From positions 310,001 to 374,000 of the forward strand of contig JAJYDC010000001.1 of NCBI GenBank assembly GCA_021777835.1: a DNA stretch of 64,000 nucleotides. The letters are read 5' to 3'. The stretch comes from Bacteroidota bacterium (GTDB taxonomy: Bacteria > Bacteroidota > Ignavibacteria > Ignavibacteriales > Ignavibacteriaceae). The notes under the pieces were generated by a model. The model did not search any database. It was not told the DNA's origin and saw only the letters and a program-made list of their open reading frames with translations. A program made the translations under genes and the position numbers. Below, piece after piece: positions 54,790-63,803 of this stretch (the stretch's first letter is position 1; each line of letters opens with the position of its first letter).

Positions 54790-54886
54790 TTGCTAATAAT
54801 ATTATTTGAATCTAGTATCTAAAGATAAAAATAAAATTCGGTAATTGTTTAATTTTACCCGAGCAATAAATTCAATTGGAGGAAAA

Positions 54887-55405
54887 ATGTTGGACTTTAT
54901 TTACGGACCGATTCTAATTATGTCAATGAGAATTTGCGATGTCTCTCTTGATACTATTCGAGTAATTCTAGTTGTGCAAGGCAAAAAATACTACGCCGGA
55001 ATTGTTGGCTTCTTTGAAGTCCTAATTTGGGTATTTGCTATACGATTTATATTTCAACACCTCGATAACATTCCTAATCTTTTTGGGTATGCTACTGGCT
55101 TTGGACTAGGAAATATTATTGGAATAATGATAGAACAAAAAATCGGATTTGGGTATGCGCAACTAAATATCATATCGCGGCATCTTACCGATGATATTGC
55201 AGATACCCTTCGTAAATCAAAATTTGCAGTTACTATTTTACCCGCCGAAGGTGGTGCAGGCGGCGTATCAGTAATTGTAATAATTATTTCACGTAAGTTC
55301 CAGAAAGAAATTATAAAACTAATAGAATCAATCGATAAGAATGTATTTATAACAATTCAGTCATCACTTCCTTTGAGAGGATATAGACTTGGGTCAAGAA
55401 AATGA
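54887..55405 (+). CDS. DUF2179 (UPF0316) membrane protein
   Basis: A 172-residue protein with three N-terminal helices (about 7-25, 35-55 and 60-85) followed by a soluble DUF2179 domain (RHLTDDIADTLRKSKFAV, EGGAGGVSVIVIIISRK). UPF0316 proteins are widespread and uncharacterised. The ATG at 54887 has the SD GGAGG six bases before it; a TTG at 54845 is not supported by an SD. It is followed by two tRNA genes. Confidence 0.85.
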   Translation: MLDFIYGPILIMSMRICDVSLDTIRVILVVQGKKYYAGIVGFFEVLIWVFAIRFIFQHLDNIPNLFGYATGFGLGNIIGIMIEQKIGFGYAQLNIISRHLTDDIADTLRKSKFAVTILPAEGGAGGVSVIVIIISRKFQKEIIKLIESIDKNVFITIQSSLPLRGYRLGSRK

Positions 55406-55501
55406 TTTTAATTGATTCAATTATTTTGCAAAATGAACGAATCCTATTATATTTGAGACGCAAATTTTTGGAATATGCTAAGTTAATTTGAAATTATGTT
55501 T

Positions 55502-55574
<73 letters not shown>

Positions 55575-55630
55575 CAAAAGTAATATTAAACTGATAATAA
55601 TCCACGAAAGTGGATTTTATTGTTATATAT

Positions 55631-55704
55631 GGCGCTGTAGCCAAGTGGTCTAAGGCGAAGGTCTGCAAAACCTTTATTCGTCGGTTCGAATCCGACCGGC
55701 GCCT
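55631..55704 (+). tRNA. tRNA-Cys (anticodon GCA)
   Basis: Acceptor GGCGCTG pairs with CGGCGCC (one G-T). The anticodon stem AAGGT/ACCTT encloses CTGCAAA, giving GCA. The T arm is TCGGTTCGAATCCGA. It lies 56 bp after tRNA-Gly. Confidence 0.95.
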
Positions 55705-55814
55705 CAATAGCTCGAATTGTATTAATTTTGAGCGTAACCTATCACAAGATTTCTACCCCTCTCTTTTAGTGCTCTTATCTCTTTACATGATTATACTTGT
55801 CTAGAAATGTGCTA

Positions 55815-56234: not shown

Positions 56235-57665
56235 TTATTTTAAGAATGATGATATCAAATTTATAATAGTTCCGGGTGCTATTCCTATAATAATCACTAA
56301 AAGTACAGAGATAATTACTGCTGTTAGCCCAGTTTTACTTAAGTCTAATTTTAAGTCTCCTTCAGAATCCTTAAAGTACATCAACACAACAATTCTTAAA
56401 TAAAAATAAACTGAAATAACGCTTGAGAGCACTCCTAGTATTGCTAACCAAGTTAATTTTGATTTAATTGCTGCAATAAACACATAATACTTACCGAAGA
56501 ATCCCGCAAATGGTGGAATTCCAGCAAGTGAAAACATTATTATTGCAAAAAGCGCGGCAAGCAAAGGGTACCTAGAAGCTAAACCAGAGAACGATTTTAA
56601 TGTTAAGTTAGATTCGTCTTTCCCCTCAATTAAAGCTACAATTCCAAATGCACCTAAATTCATAAAGGTGTATGAAGCTAAATAAAAAATTACACCTGCA
56701 ATACCAAATGAATTTCCTGCGGCTAAACCAATTAACAAATATCCTGCATGTGAAATTGATGAATATGCAAGCATTCTTTTAATGTTCTCCTGAGAGATCG
56801 CAACAATACTTCCATAAAACATTGATAACACTGCAATTACAGCGAGATAAGGCATTAAAATATTCCCGATTCTCCCTGTAAACAAAACGCCTAGTGTAAC
56901 AATAATTGCGCTAAAAGCAGCGGCTTTACCTCCGGTTGAAAATAACCCGGCAATAGTCGAAGGAGAACCTTCATATACATCTGGAACCCACATGTGGAAT
57001 GGGAAGGCAGCAATCTTAAATGAAAAGCCAATTAGGAATAATAATATTCCGGCGATAAAAAGTTTATCAGAAGATAATTCATAAAACCGGGATGTAATCA
57101 TGTCTATTGATGTTGAATGAACAGTTCCATAAATCAATGCAATTCCGTAAACAATAAAACCAGTAGCAAAAGCTCCGAGCAAAAAATATTTTAACGAAGC
57201 TTCGTTAGCATTTAACCGTTTTCTATTCAAACCGGCTAAAGCATAAAAACTAACTGACATCAACTCTAAGCCGATAAAGATCATGAATAGATCCTTTGCG
57301 CCTGCCATCAACATCATACCCAACACTGATGTTTGGAGAAGAAGATAATATTCACCGAAATATGTACCATATTTTTTTATGTAATCGATGGAAAGAAGAG
57401 CAACAATAGCAGCCCCAAAGGTAAATATCACATAGAATATATTTACTATTCCTCCCGTTGCAAGCATATTTTGGAATACGACCGAAATAGAATCTATGGT
57501 ATACAAAGCGTGAAATCCTGCTGCTAAAAATAATAGGACGGTGAACCATGGAAGTATTACTTCACTTTTTTTAGAGTACATTTCAATAATAAGTGAGATT
57601 AATATTCCTGCCCCTATTAGCAACACAGGTATAATATTATAAAATTCTTGGAAGTTGTTAAGCAT
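56235..57665 (-). CDS. nuoN: NADH-quinone oxidoreductase subunit N
   Basis: A Mrp-antiporter-like proton channel subunit of complex I. It has about fourteen transmembrane helices and the proton-antiporter core: MLMAGAKDLFMIFIGLELMS, the Lys-bearing FKIAAFPFHMWVPDVYEG, and NIKRMLAYSSISHAGYLLIG. Length (476) is normal. It is the last gene of the operon and follows the unknown 121-residue gene by 4 bp. Confidence 0.93.
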   Translation of the reverse strand: MLNNFQEFYNIIPVLLIGAGILISLIIEMYSKKSEVILPWFTVLLFLAAGFHALYTIDSISVVFQNMLATGGIVNIFYVIFTFGAAIVALLSIDYIKKYGTYFGEYYLLLQTSVLGMMLMAGAKDLFMIFIGLELMSVSFYALAGLNRKRLNANEASLKYFLLGAFATGFIVYGIALIYGTVHSTSIDMITSRFYELSSDKLFIAGILLFLIGFSFKIAAFPFHMWVPDVYEGSPSTIAGLFSTGGKAAAFSAIIVTLGVLFTGRIGNILMPYLAVIAVLSMFYGSIVAISQENIKRMLAYSSISHAGYLLIGLAAGNSFGIAGVIFYLASYTFMNLGAFGIVALIEGKDESNLTLKSFSGLASRYPLLAALFAIIMFSLAGIPPFAGFFGKYYVFIAAIKSKLTWLAILGVLSSVISVYFYLRIVVLMYFKDSEGDLKLDLSKTGLTAVIISVLLVIIIGIAPGTIINLISSFLK

Positions 57666-57669
57666 AATG

Positions 57670-58035
57670 TTATTCTAAAAATAAAATATCTTCGTCTGTT
57701 TTTTCAATAATTAATTTATGATTGTCCTCAAGTCTGAGAGCTAACTTAATGTGATTATCCATTTGGAAAATATCTTCATCTTTCTCTACGGCAACTAATT
57801 TAATTGCTTCATATTTTGTGATATTTTCCTTCAAATTCTTAAACTCCTTAAAATATATTTCAGTAAATGAGTCTGTTGATCTTATATATAATGATTTTGA
57901 TGAAGGAGAAAAATCCATCAAAATGTCGTCCTCAATAACTATTTTCAATATATAACAAGGAAAAGGTAACAATACTCTGTTGCCATAATATAATCCGTTA
58001 ATTTTATTTTCTAAAGCATCCTTAATGGTTCTCAT
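57670..58035 (-). CDS. Hypothetical soluble protein inside the nuo operon
   Basis: A 121-residue protein that I do not recognise. It is mixed alpha/beta with many acidic residues at the C-terminus (about 100-121). It has no membrane segment or catalytic motif. Its ATG overlaps the antiporter stop (TAATG), preceded by GGGAGAAG, so it is translated from the same messenger. An upstream in-frame ATG at 58065 would overlap the antiporter by 31 bp and is less likely. Confidence 0.65.
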   Translation of the reverse strand: MRTIKDALENKINGLYYGNRVLLPFPCYILKIVIEDDILMDFSPSSKSLYIRSTDSFTEIYFKEFKNLKENITKYEAIKLVAVEKDEDIFQMDNHIKLALRLEDNHKLIIEKTDEDILFLE

Positions 58036-59495
58036 TAACTTCTCCCATAAAAAAACAATAACCAAATGATCGTATATGCCGGAAGTAATACTAACAGTGA
58101 ATACTTAAATATATATGCAAAAAAGCTAGGCATTGTAATACCGGCTCTTTCGCTTATTGATTTAACCATAAAATTAGGTCCATTTCCGATATATGTCATA
58201 GCACCAAAAAGAACTGCGCTTATTGAAATTGCTTCTAAATAAATAATGTCCACGCTTATAAAATGCTGTACATGAGCCTTAATTGCTACATCAAGATAAT
58301 ATTTCCCCATTGCCGCACTCAGAAAATTTATATACGTCGGCGTATTATCAAGCACTGACGAAAGTGCTCCTGTCGCCCAATAAAAAACATCCGCATTTAA
58401 CTTGTTACCAAGTGTTTTTGCTTCAATTGCTACTAATTCAAGCGCAGGAAGCATAGTAATAAAAATTCCTAAAAATAAAAATGCCACCTCTTTTATGGGC
58501 TCAAAGTTAAATTCATTTGCCTTTAGAATCTTTTGATCTGAACCTTTATAAGCAAAATAAACAACCGCGAACATGATTATTTCTCTTACCCCAAATGGTA
58601 AAGGGGAAAAATCCGGAACCCAATGGAACACCGAGGGATCAATAAATACAGCAAGAATAATTACCAACAAAAATATCATATTCTTGTGGCCCTTGATTTC
58701 AATTTTCCCACTGTACTGTTTCTTGTCGCTTGACTTCTTATTTAAAAGATCAAAAAAGTAAAATGGAATTAAAATCAAAATCAGTGCTAAAATCCACATA
58801 TACCACATATGCTGGACAACCCAAAAGAAAGGAACGCCGCTAAGAAATCCTAAAAATAACGGAGGATCTCCCAACGGGGTTAACGCTCCGCCTACATTGC
58901 TAACAATAAAAATAAAAAATATAATATGATACGTAGCTATTCTATCTTTATTTAGTTTTATAAATGGCTTTATCAGTAGAACTGATGCACCAGTTGTACC
59001 TATAAAATTAGCAAGAACAGCACCAATCAATAGAAAAATCGTGTTAACAATTGGAGTGGCTTTCCTATCAACATTTATCAAGATACCGCTTGCTACTACA
59101 AATAGTGAAGTCATTAACGCTATAAAAGAAATATATTCAGTTATAGTTTTTTGAAGTCCGCTAAATTCATTCAGAACAAATACATAATAACCCGCTACAA
59201 TAACTGCTAATAGAATTGAATACTTACCGTAATGCTTTTCCCAATGATGTTTGTAAAACAAAGGTCCTGTTGCAATAGCTAATAGCAATATTACAAAGGG
59301 GGCTATCAAATATATAGGAGGTTGCTGCAATTGTGTCTTTGATATAGAGGCAACATTTAATGTATCGGCGTTTAAGTTATTTTTAACTTCTGCCGATGAC
59401 AAAACAGTATTTAGAAAGAACAATAAAAGAATTCCGGTTAATAAATATATTTTCTTGGAATTATTTCTTTTCAATAAATCACTTCGCTTCGCCAT
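58035..59495 (-). CDS. Sodium:proton antiporter of the CitMHS/ion-transporter type, within the nuo operon
   Basis: A 486-residue membrane protein of the ion-transporter superfamily, often named sodium:proton antiporter (CitMHS_2-like); the substrate is inferred. A signal-like helix (about 15-35) precedes the core, whose conserved pieces are IGTTGASVLLIKPFI, NVGGALTPLGDPPLFLG and MTYIGNGPNFMVKSI. The start overlaps nuoM by 17 bp and the stop overlaps the next start. Its place inside the complex I operon is unusual and suggests coupled Na+/H+ handling. Confidence 0.8.
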   Translation of the reverse strand: MAKRSDLLKRNNSKKIYLLTGILLLFFLNTVLSSAEVKNNLNADTLNVASISKTQLQQPPIYLIAPFVILLLAIATGPLFYKHHWEKHYGKYSILLAVIVAGYYVFVLNEFSGLQKTITEYISFIALMTSLFVVASGILINVDRKATPIVNTIFLLIGAVLANFIGTTGASVLLIKPFIKLNKDRIATYHIIFFIFIVSNVGGALTPLGDPPLFLGFLSGVPFFWVVQHMWYMWILALILILIPFYFFDLLNKKSSDKKQYSGKIEIKGHKNMIFLLVIILAVFIDPSVFHWVPDFSPLPFGVREIIMFAVVYFAYKGSDQKILKANEFNFEPIKEVAFLFLGIFITMLPALELVAIEAKTLGNKLNADVFYWATGALSSVLDNTPTYINFLSAAMGKYYLDVAIKAHVQHFISVDIIYLEAISISAVLFGAMTYIGNGPNFMVKSISERAGITMPSFFAYIFKYSLLVLLPAYTIIWLLFFYGRS

Positions 59496-61002
59496 TCAAT
59501 GGAGTAAATACTTGCTCAATTACTTTCTGAGTTGAAGTTTCCGACACCTTTAAGAAAGTGCTAGGATAAATTCCAATCCAAATTACAAATACAAAAATGG
59601 CCGATAATATGAAAATCTCTCTCTTATTCATATCCTTCATCTCGTTTAACTTTGGATTCTTAACTTCACCAAAAACTACTCGCTGATAAAGCCATAGCAT
59701 ATAGACCGCAGCAAAAATTACTCCGCTTGTAGCAAATCCGGCAAACCACCAGCTATCTAATACAGGTGACTTAAATGTACCAAGAAGGATTAAAAACTCT
59801 CCGACAAAACCATTTAGCCCTGGTAATCCTATCGAAGATAATGAAGCAATCATAAAGAAAGTTGCAAACACCGGAACAATCTTTGCAATTCCGCCGTAAT
59901 CGGAAATAAGTCTCGTATGCATTCTATCATAAAGTACACCTACTAAAAGGAATAATGCCCCGGTAGACAATCCATGATTTACCATCTGAATTACCGCCCC
60001 CTGAACAGATTCTTGAGTCATTGCAAATATTCCCAATACCACAAATCCTAAATGTGCTACCGATGAATAAGCAACTAATTTTTTCATATCTTTCTGGACC
60101 ATGGCCACTAGAGCACCGTATATAATCCCAATGATAGCTAACGTAGAGATATAAGGGGCAAAGTGAATGGCAGCTTGCGGAAAAAGAGGTAAACAAAATC
60201 TAAGCAATCCGTAAGTTCCCATCTTTAAAAGAACTCCCGCCAGAATTACACTTCCCGCCGTTGGAGCTTCTACGTGTGCGTCGGGTAACCATGTGTGTAA
60301 TGGGAAAATAGGTACCTTTATTGCAAAACTAAGCGCAAAAGCTAAAAACATCCATTGCTGAATTCCATATGGAATATTTGGGGCAATAGTATAAAGCTCA
60401 ACAAGATTCGTGGTAAAATGCCCAAGTATACCTGAAGCGTATACTGCCAGCCAGATAATCGCAACCAGCATCAATAAACTGCCGAACATGGTAAAGAGAA
60501 AAAACTTTATCGATGCATAAATTCTTCTCGGTCCTCCCCATATACCTATAATAAAATACATCGGGATTAGCATCGCTTCCCAAAAAATATAAAACAGGAA
60601 GAGATCAAGTGATACAAAAACCCCAAGCATACCTAGCTCAAGTAAAAGCATGAAAAAGGTAAATTCCTTTACATTTTTATTGATGCTTTTCCAACTCGAT
60701 AACAGAGTAAGAGGGGTTAAAAATGTTGTTAATAATACAAGTAAAAGCGAGATACCGTCAACTCCAACATTATAGCTTATATGCAGATTGCTTATCCACA
60801 TATTCGTTTCAACTAATTGGAATCCCCCTTTTGCAGAATCGTATCCGGTATAAATAATTATTGATACGATAAATGTTAAAGTCGATACGAGTAATCCGAA
60901 ATACCTTACAAGGTTCTCTTTATCTTTTTTAATTAATAATAAGAGAAGAGCGCCAACTAAAGGCACCCCTAATAATAAAGTGATTAAATAATTATTTGTC
61001 AT
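59479..61002 (-). CDS. nuoM: NADH-quinone oxidoreductase subunit M
   Basis: A proton-translocating complex I subunit of the membrane arm. It has about fourteen helices with the signature Glu in LLLELGMLGVFVSLDLFLFY, the helix with FWEAMLIPMYFIIGIWGG, and the Lys-bearing FAIKVPIFPLHTWLPDAHVEAPT. Length (507) is normal. The stop overlaps the antiporter start by 17 bp; nuoL ends 3 bp upstream. Confidence 0.95.
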   Translation of the reverse strand: MTNNYLITLLLGVPLVGALLLLLIKKDKENLVRYFGLLVSTLTFIVSIIIYTGYDSAKGGFQLVETNMWISNLHISYNVGVDGISLLLVLLTTFLTPLTLLSSWKSINKNVKEFTFFMLLLELGMLGVFVSLDLFLFYIFWEAMLIPMYFIIGIWGGPRRIYASIKFFLFTMFGSLLMLVAIIWLAVYASGILGHFTTNLVELYTIAPNIPYGIQQWMFLAFALSFAIKVPIFPLHTWLPDAHVEAPTAGSVILAGVLLKMGTYGLLRFCLPLFPQAAIHFAPYISTLAIIGIIYGALVAMVQKDMKKLVAYSSVAHLGFVVLGIFAMTQESVQGAVIQMVNHGLSTGALFLLVGVLYDRMHTRLISDYGGIAKIVPVFATFFMIASLSSIGLPGLNGFVGEFLILLGTFKSPVLDSWWFAGFATSGVIFAAVYMLWLYQRVVFGEVKNPKLNEMKDMNKREIFILSAIFVFVIWIGIYPSTFLKVSETSTQKVIEQVFTPLNGEAK

Positions 61003-61005
61003 ATT

Positions 61006-62943
61006 CTACAAGCTTAGTATTATCCAGAAAAGAGCGACCACAATTCCTAGCATCATCATTAATGCATAAAACTGCGCTACGCCAGTTTGTATTTTTCTAA
61101 TAGAACCTGAAATCTTATCGATTAAGTTAGCAACACCGTTTATTAAACCATCTATGAGTTTTACATCGGCAAATTTCCATAATACTGTTTCGGATCCCTT
61201 TACAATAGGAGTTACTATTGCTGCGTCATAAACTTCATCAACATAATATTTGTTCAATAAAAGACCGTAAATTCCGTTGAATCTTTTTGCTAGACTATCA
61301 GCTGGCTTAATATTCTTTATATAAATATACCTAGCTGCATAAATACTGCCTATTACTCCTGCTAACGTTACAACCATAAAAATAATTTCTTCTAGGTTGC
61401 TGTGTACTCCAAACATGGCTATCCTCGCTTGAGCGGGTTTGAAAATCGGCTCAAACCAATTATCTAATTGATTTCCATGCTCTCCAGAAAATATTTCTGG
61501 GATACCGATAAATCCACCAACGGCAGAAAGCACTGCAAGTATAATCAATGGTATGGTCATAACAGAAGGCGACTCGTGCGGATGTTTGTCGTGACCGAAT
61601 CTTTCTTTGCCGTCAAAAGTTAAGCTGACTAGCCTAAACATGTAAAACGCAGTGAGTAATGCAGTTATCGCTCCAACTAACCAGTATATAATATTTCCGT
61701 TAGTATATGAATACCAAAGAATTTCATCTTTGCTAAAGAAACCCGACAAAGGCGGTATCCCGGATATGGCTAATGATGCAATTAGAAATGTTATATATGT
61801 CTTAGGCATATATTTCTTCAATCCACCATAGTTTTGTATATTCTGCTCATCATGCATTCCGTGAATTACTGATCCGGCTCCTAAGAACAATAATGCTTTG
61901 AAAAATGCGTGTGTCATTACATGAAATAATGCTGCAGAAAAAGCGCCGACTCCAAGCGCTAAAAACATGTAGCCAAGCTGACTAACCGTAGAATATGCCA
62001 ATACTTTTTTAATGTCATTTTGGACTAGCCCTATTGAAGCAGCGAATATCGCAGTTAACGCGCCTACAATAGCAACCAATTCCATAATTGCTGGTGCAGA
62101 AGCATATAGGATTGAGCAGCGAGCTACCATATATACTCCGGCTGTAACCATTGTAGCTGCATGAATGAGAGCGGATACAGGTGTCGGTCCAGCCATTGCA
62201 TCTGGCAACCAAATGTATAATGGAATTTGTGCGGACTTCCCCACTGCCCCGATAAAAAGAAAAAGAGCAATGAAATTTGAAACGTATTGTGGAATGGTTA
62301 AGGATGCCGCTCTTGAAAAAACATCATTAAAGTTCAAACTTCCGAATGTCATATAAATTAGAAATATTCCTAAAAGGAATCCGAAATCACCTATCCTATT
62401 TACAATGAATGCCTTTTTAGCTGCATCACCAGTTGTGCCCTTTTCAAATTTTCTGTCATACCAAAATCCGATCAATAGATAAGAGCAAAGCCCAACACCT
62501 TCCCACCCTAAAAATAGAAGAAGGAAGTTGCTTCCGAGTATTAGATTCATCATTGCAAAGATGAACAAATTTAGATATGCAAAAAATCGTCCGAATCCCT
62601 TATCACCGTGCATATAACCAATTGAATACACGTGTATGATAAAACCTACGCCGGTTACAATTAGACCCATAAACAATGATAATTGATCAACCTGATAGGA
62701 AATATTAACATCAAAATTTCCCACCTTAATCCAAGTAAAGAGATTAACGATAGTTTGTCTTTGATCAGGAGGCATATTAAGCGTCTGGAAAAAAGCACCT
62801 AGTACTATAAGAAATGAAATCCCTATAGTCGCACTTCCCAAAATGCCTATGATTTTTTCATTTTTAATTTTGCTTCCGAAAAGCCCATTAATTAGAAATC
62901 CTAATAATGGAAGCAAAGTGGTTAAATAAATAAGCTGAACCAT
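61006..62943 (-). CDS. nuoL: NADH-quinone oxidoreductase subunit L
   Basis: The distal proton-translocating complex I subunit, with about sixteen helices and the long lateral-helix region at the C-terminus (about 560-645). Core motifs are NLILGSNFLLLFLGWEGVGL, QIPLYIWLPDAMAGPTPVSA and NDIKKVLAYSTVSQLGYMF. Length (645) is normal. It is 3 bp before nuoM and 37 bp after nuoK. Confidence 0.96.
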   Translation of the reverse strand: MVQLIYLTTLLPLLGFLINGLFGSKIKNEKIIGILGSATIGISFLIVLGAFFQTLNMPPDQRQTIVNLFTWIKVGNFDVNISYQVDQLSLFMGLIVTGVGFIIHVYSIGYMHGDKGFGRFFAYLNLFIFAMMNLILGSNFLLLFLGWEGVGLCSYLLIGFWYDRKFEKGTTGDAAKKAFIVNRIGDFGFLLGIFLIYMTFGSLNFNDVFSRAASLTIPQYVSNFIALFLFIGAVGKSAQIPLYIWLPDAMAGPTPVSALIHAATMVTAGVYMVARCSILYASAPAIMELVAIVGALTAIFAASIGLVQNDIKKVLAYSTVSQLGYMFLALGVGAFSAALFHVMTHAFFKALLFLGAGSVIHGMHDEQNIQNYGGLKKYMPKTYITFLIASLAISGIPPLSGFFSKDEILWYSYTNGNIIYWLVGAITALLTAFYMFRLVSLTFDGKERFGHDKHPHESPSVMTIPLIILAVLSAVGGFIGIPEIFSGEHGNQLDNWFEPIFKPAQARIAMFGVHSNLEEIIFMVVTLAGVIGSIYAARYIYIKNIKPADSLAKRFNGIYGLLLNKYYVDEVYDAAIVTPIVKGSETVLWKFADVKLIDGLINGVANLIDKISGSIRKIQTGVAQFYALMMMLGIVVALFWIILSL

Positions 62944-62980: not shown

Positions 62981-63286
62981 CTACCATTTTAGAATATTGA
63001 TCTCATCAATATTCAAAGTCAATTTATTACGGAAAATTGCAATAATGATTGCAAGCCCTACTGCAGCTTCCGCCGCAGCTACTGTCATTACAAAGAATAC
63101 AAAAAGTTGCCCCGCCGAATTGCCCATATATGAAGAAAAAGTTACTAGCGTTAAATTAGCTGAGTTCAACATCAATTCAATCGACATAAATACAATTATA
63201 GCATTTCGGCGGGTTAAAACGCCGGCTACGCCTACTAAAAACATAAACCCGCTTAAGATTAAATAATATTCAATTGGTACACTCAT
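62981..63286 (-). CDS. nuoK: NADH-quinone oxidoreductase subunit K
   Basis: A three-helix complex I subunit of 101 residues. The conserved Glu residues of the membrane arm are in [13 protein letters not shown] and [14 protein letters not shown]. Length is normal. It lies 4 bp after nuoJ and 37 bp before nuoL. Confidence 0.95.
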
Positions 63287-63290
63287 AATT

Positions 63291-63803
63291 TTACTCGAAT
63301 TTCTTTTTAGCTAATACTATTGCGCCTATTGTAGCCGCTAACAGTAAATATCCCGCCGCTTCAAACGGAAGCACATAATTAGTATACAATTGTTTCCCAA
63401 TTTCCTCAATTGTACCGGCATGAACACTTGCCGCTGCATCAGCATTGTTTCCGACTGCAGGATGAGAAACAAATATCATGAAAACAAGTTGCATAAATAC
63501 AATAAAAGCAATTATGAAAGCAAAGATTTTTAATTTAGGTTGATGGGAAAAATACTTCTCATGTTCGGGCTTTAATAACATGATTACAAAAAGGAACAAA
63601 ACCATTATCGCTCCCGCATAAACTATAACCTGGGTTACTGCTATGAATTGAGCGTTTAATGTTAAATATAAACCGGATAAGCCAGCCATATTTAAAATTA
63701 AAAACAATGCGCTGATTAATGCATTCGACCGCGTAATCATTAGTACGGCTGAGATAGCTGATATCGCGCCGAATAAAATAAATAGTATTAGTTGTAATGA
63801 CAT
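63291..63803 (-). CDS. nuoJ: NADH-quinone oxidoreductase subunit J
   Basis: A five-helix complex I subunit of 170 residues. The conserved [20 protein letters not shown] segment lies near residue 58. It begins 36 bp after the asnS stop, so nuoA-I are not directly upstream and the complex I genes are split. Confidence 0.93.

Follow-up and report, generated by a model that had tools for sequence, protein, structure and literature searches.

A CitMHS_2 antiporter-like gene and a small gene of no known family between nuoM and nuoN of a complex I membrane-arm cluster

Introduction

In Rhodothermus marinus, the genes nhaD and pcd reportedly lie between nqo13 (nuoM) and nqo14 (nuoN) of the nqo10–14 cluster, and we take the antiporter of this species that is known for Na+ resistance to be the gene in this slot. 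The presence of an antiporter gene and of pcd among the complex I genes of R. marinus is reported in the available part of Melo et al. (2005, doi 10.1016/j.bbabio.2005.06.003). The R. marinus antiporter, which confers Na+ resistance in E. coli, was the basis for proposing the NhaE family (TC 2.A.111), according to the accessible sections of PMC9408914. In Melioribacter roseus, ndhJKLM correspond to Mros0138–0135 and ndhN to Mros0132, and ndhGHI form a separate locus, Mros2032–2034 (PMC3534657, available text).

Here, we describe a comparable locus in the window, the whole stretch of 64 000 nucleotides that was analysed. It codes for a CitMHS_2 transporter (CIT) and a protein of no known family (SMALL), and we compare the distribution of the two genes with that of the neighbouring nuo genes.

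Gene organization of the locus

The features of the locus are listed in table 1. The initial annotation had placed an antiporter-like gene and a 121-residue gene between nuoM and nuoN; the coordinates and the matches to PF16980, TIGR01972 and TIGR01770 bear this out, and the two overlaps that it described, of nuoM with CIT and of CIT with SMALL, are both present.

Table 1. Features of the CIT–SMALL locus in the window.
Feature	Position	Strand	Basis or remark
nuoJ	63291..63803	-	opens the membrane-arm cluster; assigned by eye and from its position, with counterparts in relatives
nuoK	62981..63286	-	named by eye and position
nuoL	61006..62943	-	TIGR01974, 779.6 bits
nuoM	59479..61002	-	TIGR01972, 639.5 bits
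nuoM/CIT overlap, 17 bp	59479..59495	-	the open CIT frame has this ATG as its first codon
CIT, 486 aa, transporter of the CitMHS_2 family and probable NhaE/NhaD-like Na+/H+ antiporter	58035..59495	-	PF16980
GGGAGAAG, Shine-Dalgarno-like, within the end of CIT and directly 5' of the SMALL ATG	58039..58046	-	sequence reading
CIT stop TAA and SMALL start ATG, one base in common (TAATG)	58035..58035	-	sequence
SMALL, partner gene of CIT, 121 aa; no family assigned; predicted as a soluble all-beta domain	57670..58035	-	ATG at 58035
nuoN, 4 bp downstream of SMALL	56235..57665	-	TIGR01770, 409.1 bits

Read past the window edge, where asnS (locus L132; named by eye) lies upstream of nuoJ, the order of the cluster is asnS–nuoJKLM–CIT–SMALL–nuoN. 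The pair had been described as inside the nuo operon. It does lie within a nuoJKLM...nuoN cluster; this is the membrane-arm part and not the whole operon, and nuoG-, nuoH- and nuoI-like genes are carried by another contig of the source genome (C51, L156; nuoH by Pfam, nuoG and nuoI by eye). Matches to the nuoH family are found on contigs C51, C36 and C42 of this genome, that on C42 being weaker (108 bits). Contig C36 (L128) carries a second nuo cluster, nuoABCDHIJKLMN, without CIT (partly by eye). There, nuoE, nuoF and nuoG were not seen, and the cluster (L128:494-14040) is preceded by haem-binding cytochrome-like genes (by eye).

After nuoN, positions 54845-55705 of the window contain tRNA-Cys, tRNA-Gly and a DUF5698/DUF2179 gene; an nnrE-like gene is found at this place in 29 of 30 class loci. 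The segment is a rearrangement point.

The distance from the CIT stop to the SMALL start varies from -1 to 24 bp over 40 distinct class places (47 class rows, seven of them second copies of one place), with an overlap in the window copy only. Close spacing of the two genes is conserved, and the exact overlaps are local to the window copy. Translational coupling of CIT and SMALL is possible there, given the lack of intergenic space and the presence of GGGAGAAG before the SMALL ATG. A scan for sigma-70 promoters found 38, against a mean of 34.6 in shuffled sequences.

Family and predicted fold of CIT

CIT matches CitMHS_2 (PF16980) over residues 60-482 with 456.5 bits, above the curated Pfam cut-off of 25.7, and CitMHS (PF03600) with 50.1 bits. 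The Pfam label for PF16980 is 'putative citrate transport'. No match to PF00361, the antiporter-like family of Mrp and NuoLMN, was found in CIT at E<=10, and a search of PDB sequences with the CIT profile gave none at E<=1. The AF2 model of CIT (pLDDT 87.7) aligns with ArsB over 390 residues (Z 31.4, rmsd 3.9), followed by NaS1, NaDC3, Pho90, INDY and other anion carriers (Z 19-26); Foldseek returned Pho90 (E 2.5e-6) and ArsB (2.6e-6). ArsB and NhaD are related. CIT is thus predicted by its model to belong to the IT superfamily, which has the ArsB/INDY-type fold (ArsB/NhaD/DASS). The earlier reading of CIT as antiporter-like agrees with its family (PF16980) and with the predicted fold (ArsB).

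The motifs GDPP, LDN.P and YIGN.PN are invariant in CIT over 40 rows, as are the acidic residues D210, E336 and D383. These three residues appear compatible with ion coupling and are no proof of Na+/H+ exchange, which we nevertheless infer for CIT.

A quick CitMHS_2 tree was built from 96 picked rows after removal of repeats. Clade A (54 rows, support 99) contains all 46 SMALL-linked rows and the single sampled nuo/PCD row, PCD being pterin-4a-carbinolamine dehydratase. Clade B (23 rows, support 99) has SMALL in the flank of none of its 23 rows. The tree also includes a clade of 14 rows of family f27, beside PCD or nuoL, and five rows on longer branches. Seven genomes have both clade A and clade B rows, and SMALL is at the clade A copy in all seven. 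One row, L063_G036, is labelled as lacking SMALL because its contig ends there.

SMALL is a genuine gene of no known family

Of 59 genomes, counting that of the window, 38 have SMALL, with 45 to 80% identity to the window copy (alignment A1). Its dN/dS is 0.096 and 0.055 against two relatives (L004 and L006), near the values for CIT (0.071 and 0.059); synonymous changes are near saturation for the second relative, L006. These ratios indicate that SMALL is under purifying selection. A spurious open reading frame is ruled out by the distribution of the gene together with its dN/dS.

Neither Pfam nor NCBIfam gave a match to SMALL. Its relatives gave scattered weak matches to these collections, any one family being hit by no more than three of 31 members (lowest E 0.0048), 2 of 22 and 1 of 22. 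The PCD family, PF01329, was matched by none of the 31 or the 22 members at E<=1. A diverged PCD was rejected as the identity of SMALL on the lack of a PF01329 match and an hhalign probability of 0.2%.

The model of SMALL is a compact all-beta domain of good confidence (pLDDT 89, pTM 0.83). Its highest 19-residue hydropathy is 1.47, and no segment exceeds the threshold of 1.6. Foldseek returned nothing at E<=0.001 for the model, and the best VIA match is ZP2 (Z 6.1), followed by Ig-like folds, a similarity that may merely reflect a common arrangement. A PCD chain is not among the best 50 rows of either Foldseek or VIA, which excludes nothing. Searches of PDB sequences gave no match with the A1 profile and two rows of chance level with the A3 profile. 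None of the fold matches from Foldseek and VIA gives a function.

SMALL travels with CIT

In the 59 genomes (own included), CIT is directly upstream of SMALL in 38 of 39 copies, one of these CIT being a remnant. Such constancy of order, together with the purifying selection on SMALL, exceeds what chance would give. The lone SMALL without upstream CIT is at a contig start, and the CIT of the same genome also ends near a contig end. The survey of nuoM–nuoN gene order in relatives showed placement among nuo genes to be common, nuoN being directly downstream of SMALL in at least 34 of the 39 copies. The count is based on 66 of 67 CIT rows, G049:C139 being below the cut-off, and on at least 109 NuoN rows. 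Among the five SMALL copies without a counted nuoN, that of G027 is followed 117 bp onward by a nuoN fragment at a contig end. CIT–SMALL lies between asnS and an nnrE-like gene, without nuoJKLMN, in G047, G037, G048 and G057. In G037, a NuoL/M-like cluster that resembles a membrane-bound hydrogenase (by eye) is found after asnS–CIT–SMALL–nnrE (L114:10623-17868).

SMALL can outlast CIT, because the CIT of G003 is a 45-position remnant running into SMALL between nuoM and nuoN (L024:1501-2179) and the CIT copy of G012 contains one stop. Either a deletion or faulty assembly of this fragmented genome accounts for the G003 remnant. There are also CIT genes without SMALL: they adjoin nuoN in G013, G017 and G006, CIT is alone in G049, and the class members G126, G166 and G062 likewise lack SMALL. 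In G035 (C155:847-3791, L048), two CIT genes in tandem are followed by SMALL and nuoN.

The A1 profile of SMALL matched 25 of 197 class genomes. The A3 profile, to which diverged rows were added, matched 45 of 198 phylum genomes at E<=0.001, 14 belonging to the order of the window and 31 to family f21. At E<=0.01, A1 gave two weak rows outside families f1, f2 and f21, G109 (with internal stops) and G119, which are taken as chance matches. The SMALL profile matched none of the three genomes to which the loci L010, L011 and L012 belong, a comparison that is uninformative as it had no control.

Family f21 is probably Chlorobiaceae, because it groups with two uncultured Chlorobiaceae loci. Among its 28 SMALL rows (G120, E 0.0024, left out) and 46 CIT rows (a second fragment in G104 left out), SMALL is directly after CIT in 20 of 28 copies, with gaps of 20-60 bp and one of 321 bp, and elsewhere in eight. 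Twelve of 43 CIT-bearing genomes gave no SMALL match. A broken SMALL is found directly after a full-length CIT match in two genomes (G120:C30:27186-27350 and G233:C43:72358-72662). In G153 (L116:7900-9706) and G090 (L129:7250-9035), also of f21, SMALL is away from CIT and directly before a membrane-protein gene, presumably DUF389-like. The association of SMALL with CIT thus holds within nuo clusters, in loci flanked by asnS and nnrE, and in f21, three contexts in all.

The pair is separable from the complex I genes

Gene content was compared in 30 chosen class loci. The choice was not random, and L127 (PCD type) and L128 (the second nuo cluster) were left out. Both the asnS and nnrE flanks are kept in 27 loci. 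Eleven have the arrangement nuoJKLM–CIT–SMALL–nuoN; five have CIT–SMALL without nuoJKLMN (L112, L113, L114, L115 and L152); eight have nuoJKLM–nuoN without the pair (L138-L141 and L148-L151); five have nuo and CIT without SMALL (L131, L142, L120, L121 and L125); and in one, L137, CIT is alone. When the missing proteins were searched by tblastn against 14 loci (6 + 8), no convincing remnant was found; the strong nuo-like matches in L114 belong to another cluster. Five Chlorobiaceae-like (f21) loci (L007, L008, L118, L119 and L122) also carry a diverged pair and have no nuo genes in the vicinity.

The gene pair and its conservation are observed directly in these genomes, and since pair and nuoJKLMN each occur without the other, in five and eight of the 30 loci respectively, the pair is separable from complex I. 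The initial annotation had asked whether the two genes always travel with nuo; they do not, as the pair-only and nuo-only class loci and the nuo-free Chlorobiaceae-like pairs demonstrate. Because nuo-embedded copies are found class-wide, the pair-only and nuo-only loci are read as losses; loss is a reading of the pattern and not an observation, and the pattern fixes neither the direction nor the number of events.

PCD occupies the same position in other genomes

Five other families include at least 11 genomes, picked by reading coordinates, that have the order CIT–PCD–nuoN with gaps of 26-121 bp. In six f27 genomes with no nuoN among the matches listed (E<=1e-85), CIT and PCD are divergent neighbours; for G231 (f27), the absence of nuoN is deduced from there being no row among the matches listed. 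In G078, G075, G165 and others of families f26, f24 and f27, PCD is directly before nuoN and no CIT match is listed. PCD seems to have its own link to the nuo cluster.

Discussion

The reading that we favour, with a probability of roughly 0.56, is that CIT is a single-polypeptide CitMHS_2 (NhaE/NhaD-like) Na+/H+ antiporter and that SMALL is a cytosolic partner subunit dedicated to it, for which regulation or gating is the likeliest role. Complex I would pump protons and build the proton gradient; CIT would spend part of this gradient in expelling Na+ and setting the internal pH; and SMALL, which would contact CIT on the cytosolic side, would adjust its activity. The two genes lie between nuoM and nuoN and are therefore probably co-expressed with complex I. 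Against this reading weigh the CIT remnant of G003, the stop in the G012 copy, the CIT genes without SMALL, and the f21 genomes in which SMALL is broken, away from CIT or not matched.

The pair might instead be accessory subunits that give complex I the capacity for Na+ transport, as the initial annotation had suggested. The frequency with which nuoN directly follows SMALL and the R. marinus precedent, in so far as the available sources describe it, speak for this. It is nevertheless very improbable: the 30 chosen loci include five with the pair only and eight with nuo only, nuo genes are absent near the pair in the five f21-type loci, and CIT is absent from the other nuo cluster (L128) of the window genome. 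On the 30-locus pattern, in which the pair does not occur with, and only with, nuoJKLMN, we reject CIT and SMALL as complex I subunits; and because the pair is often kept where nuo is missing, it is more probable that SMALL partners the antiporter than that it belongs to complex I.

The nature of both proteins may also be other than supposed. CIT could carry citrate, a dicarboxylate, arsenite or another anion, with SMALL serving that transport; the Pfam name of PF16980 and the top matches to the predicted fold (ArsB, Pho90, and di/tricarboxylate or sulfate carriers) point that way, and we regard it as unlikely given that the R. marinus antiporter gives E. coli resistance to Na+, according to the accessible part of PMC9408914. 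Somewhat less unlikely is that SMALL does not regulate CIT and is instead a factor for assembly or stability, or an enzyme that its position has brought along. This would suit the occurrence of an unrelated enzyme family, PCD, at the same position in at least 11 genomes, and of CIT without SMALL in G013, G017, G006 and G049, but SMALL is kept with CIT in the nuo, asnS/nnrE and f21 contexts alike. As an antiporter partner, SMALL might, more tentatively, be the first of a new protein family, soluble subunits that regulate single-polypeptide NhaE-type antiporters in Ignavibacteria-like and Chlorobiaceae-like genomes, with PCD as its equivalent in Rhodothermus-type loci. If so, the same slot would hold two unrelated small proteins, either of which would adjust a Na+/H+ antiporter to respiration. 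A family without a name gains from these data a testable role, as partner of a Na+/H+ antiporter, and the natural arrangements of both kinds, pair-only and nuo-only, offer a test of whether the antiporter is a part of the enzyme or merely co-expressed with it.

The gene order in M. roseus resembles that of the window genome, according to the available text of PMC3534657, in that two gene numbers fall between ndhM and ndhN and that ndhGHI are apart. That available text mentions neither Mros0133 nor Mros0134, nor the word 'antiporter'; these two genes would be CIT and SMALL. NhaE (TC 2.A.111) is described in the accessible part of PMC9408914 as an IT-superfamily exchanger, and CIT is predicted to have a fold of the IT type. 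CIT is likened to NhaE through this description, which in the part available mentions no small partner. R. marinus, as far as the available sources describe it, is like the window in having an antiporter gene and a gene for a small soluble protein among those of complex I; its small gene is a PCD homologue, whereas neither family nor profile searches matched SMALL to PCD. The arrangement is thus partly known, as antiporter and pcd in R. marinus; what is new is SMALL in this slot and the evidence for its partnership with the antiporter.
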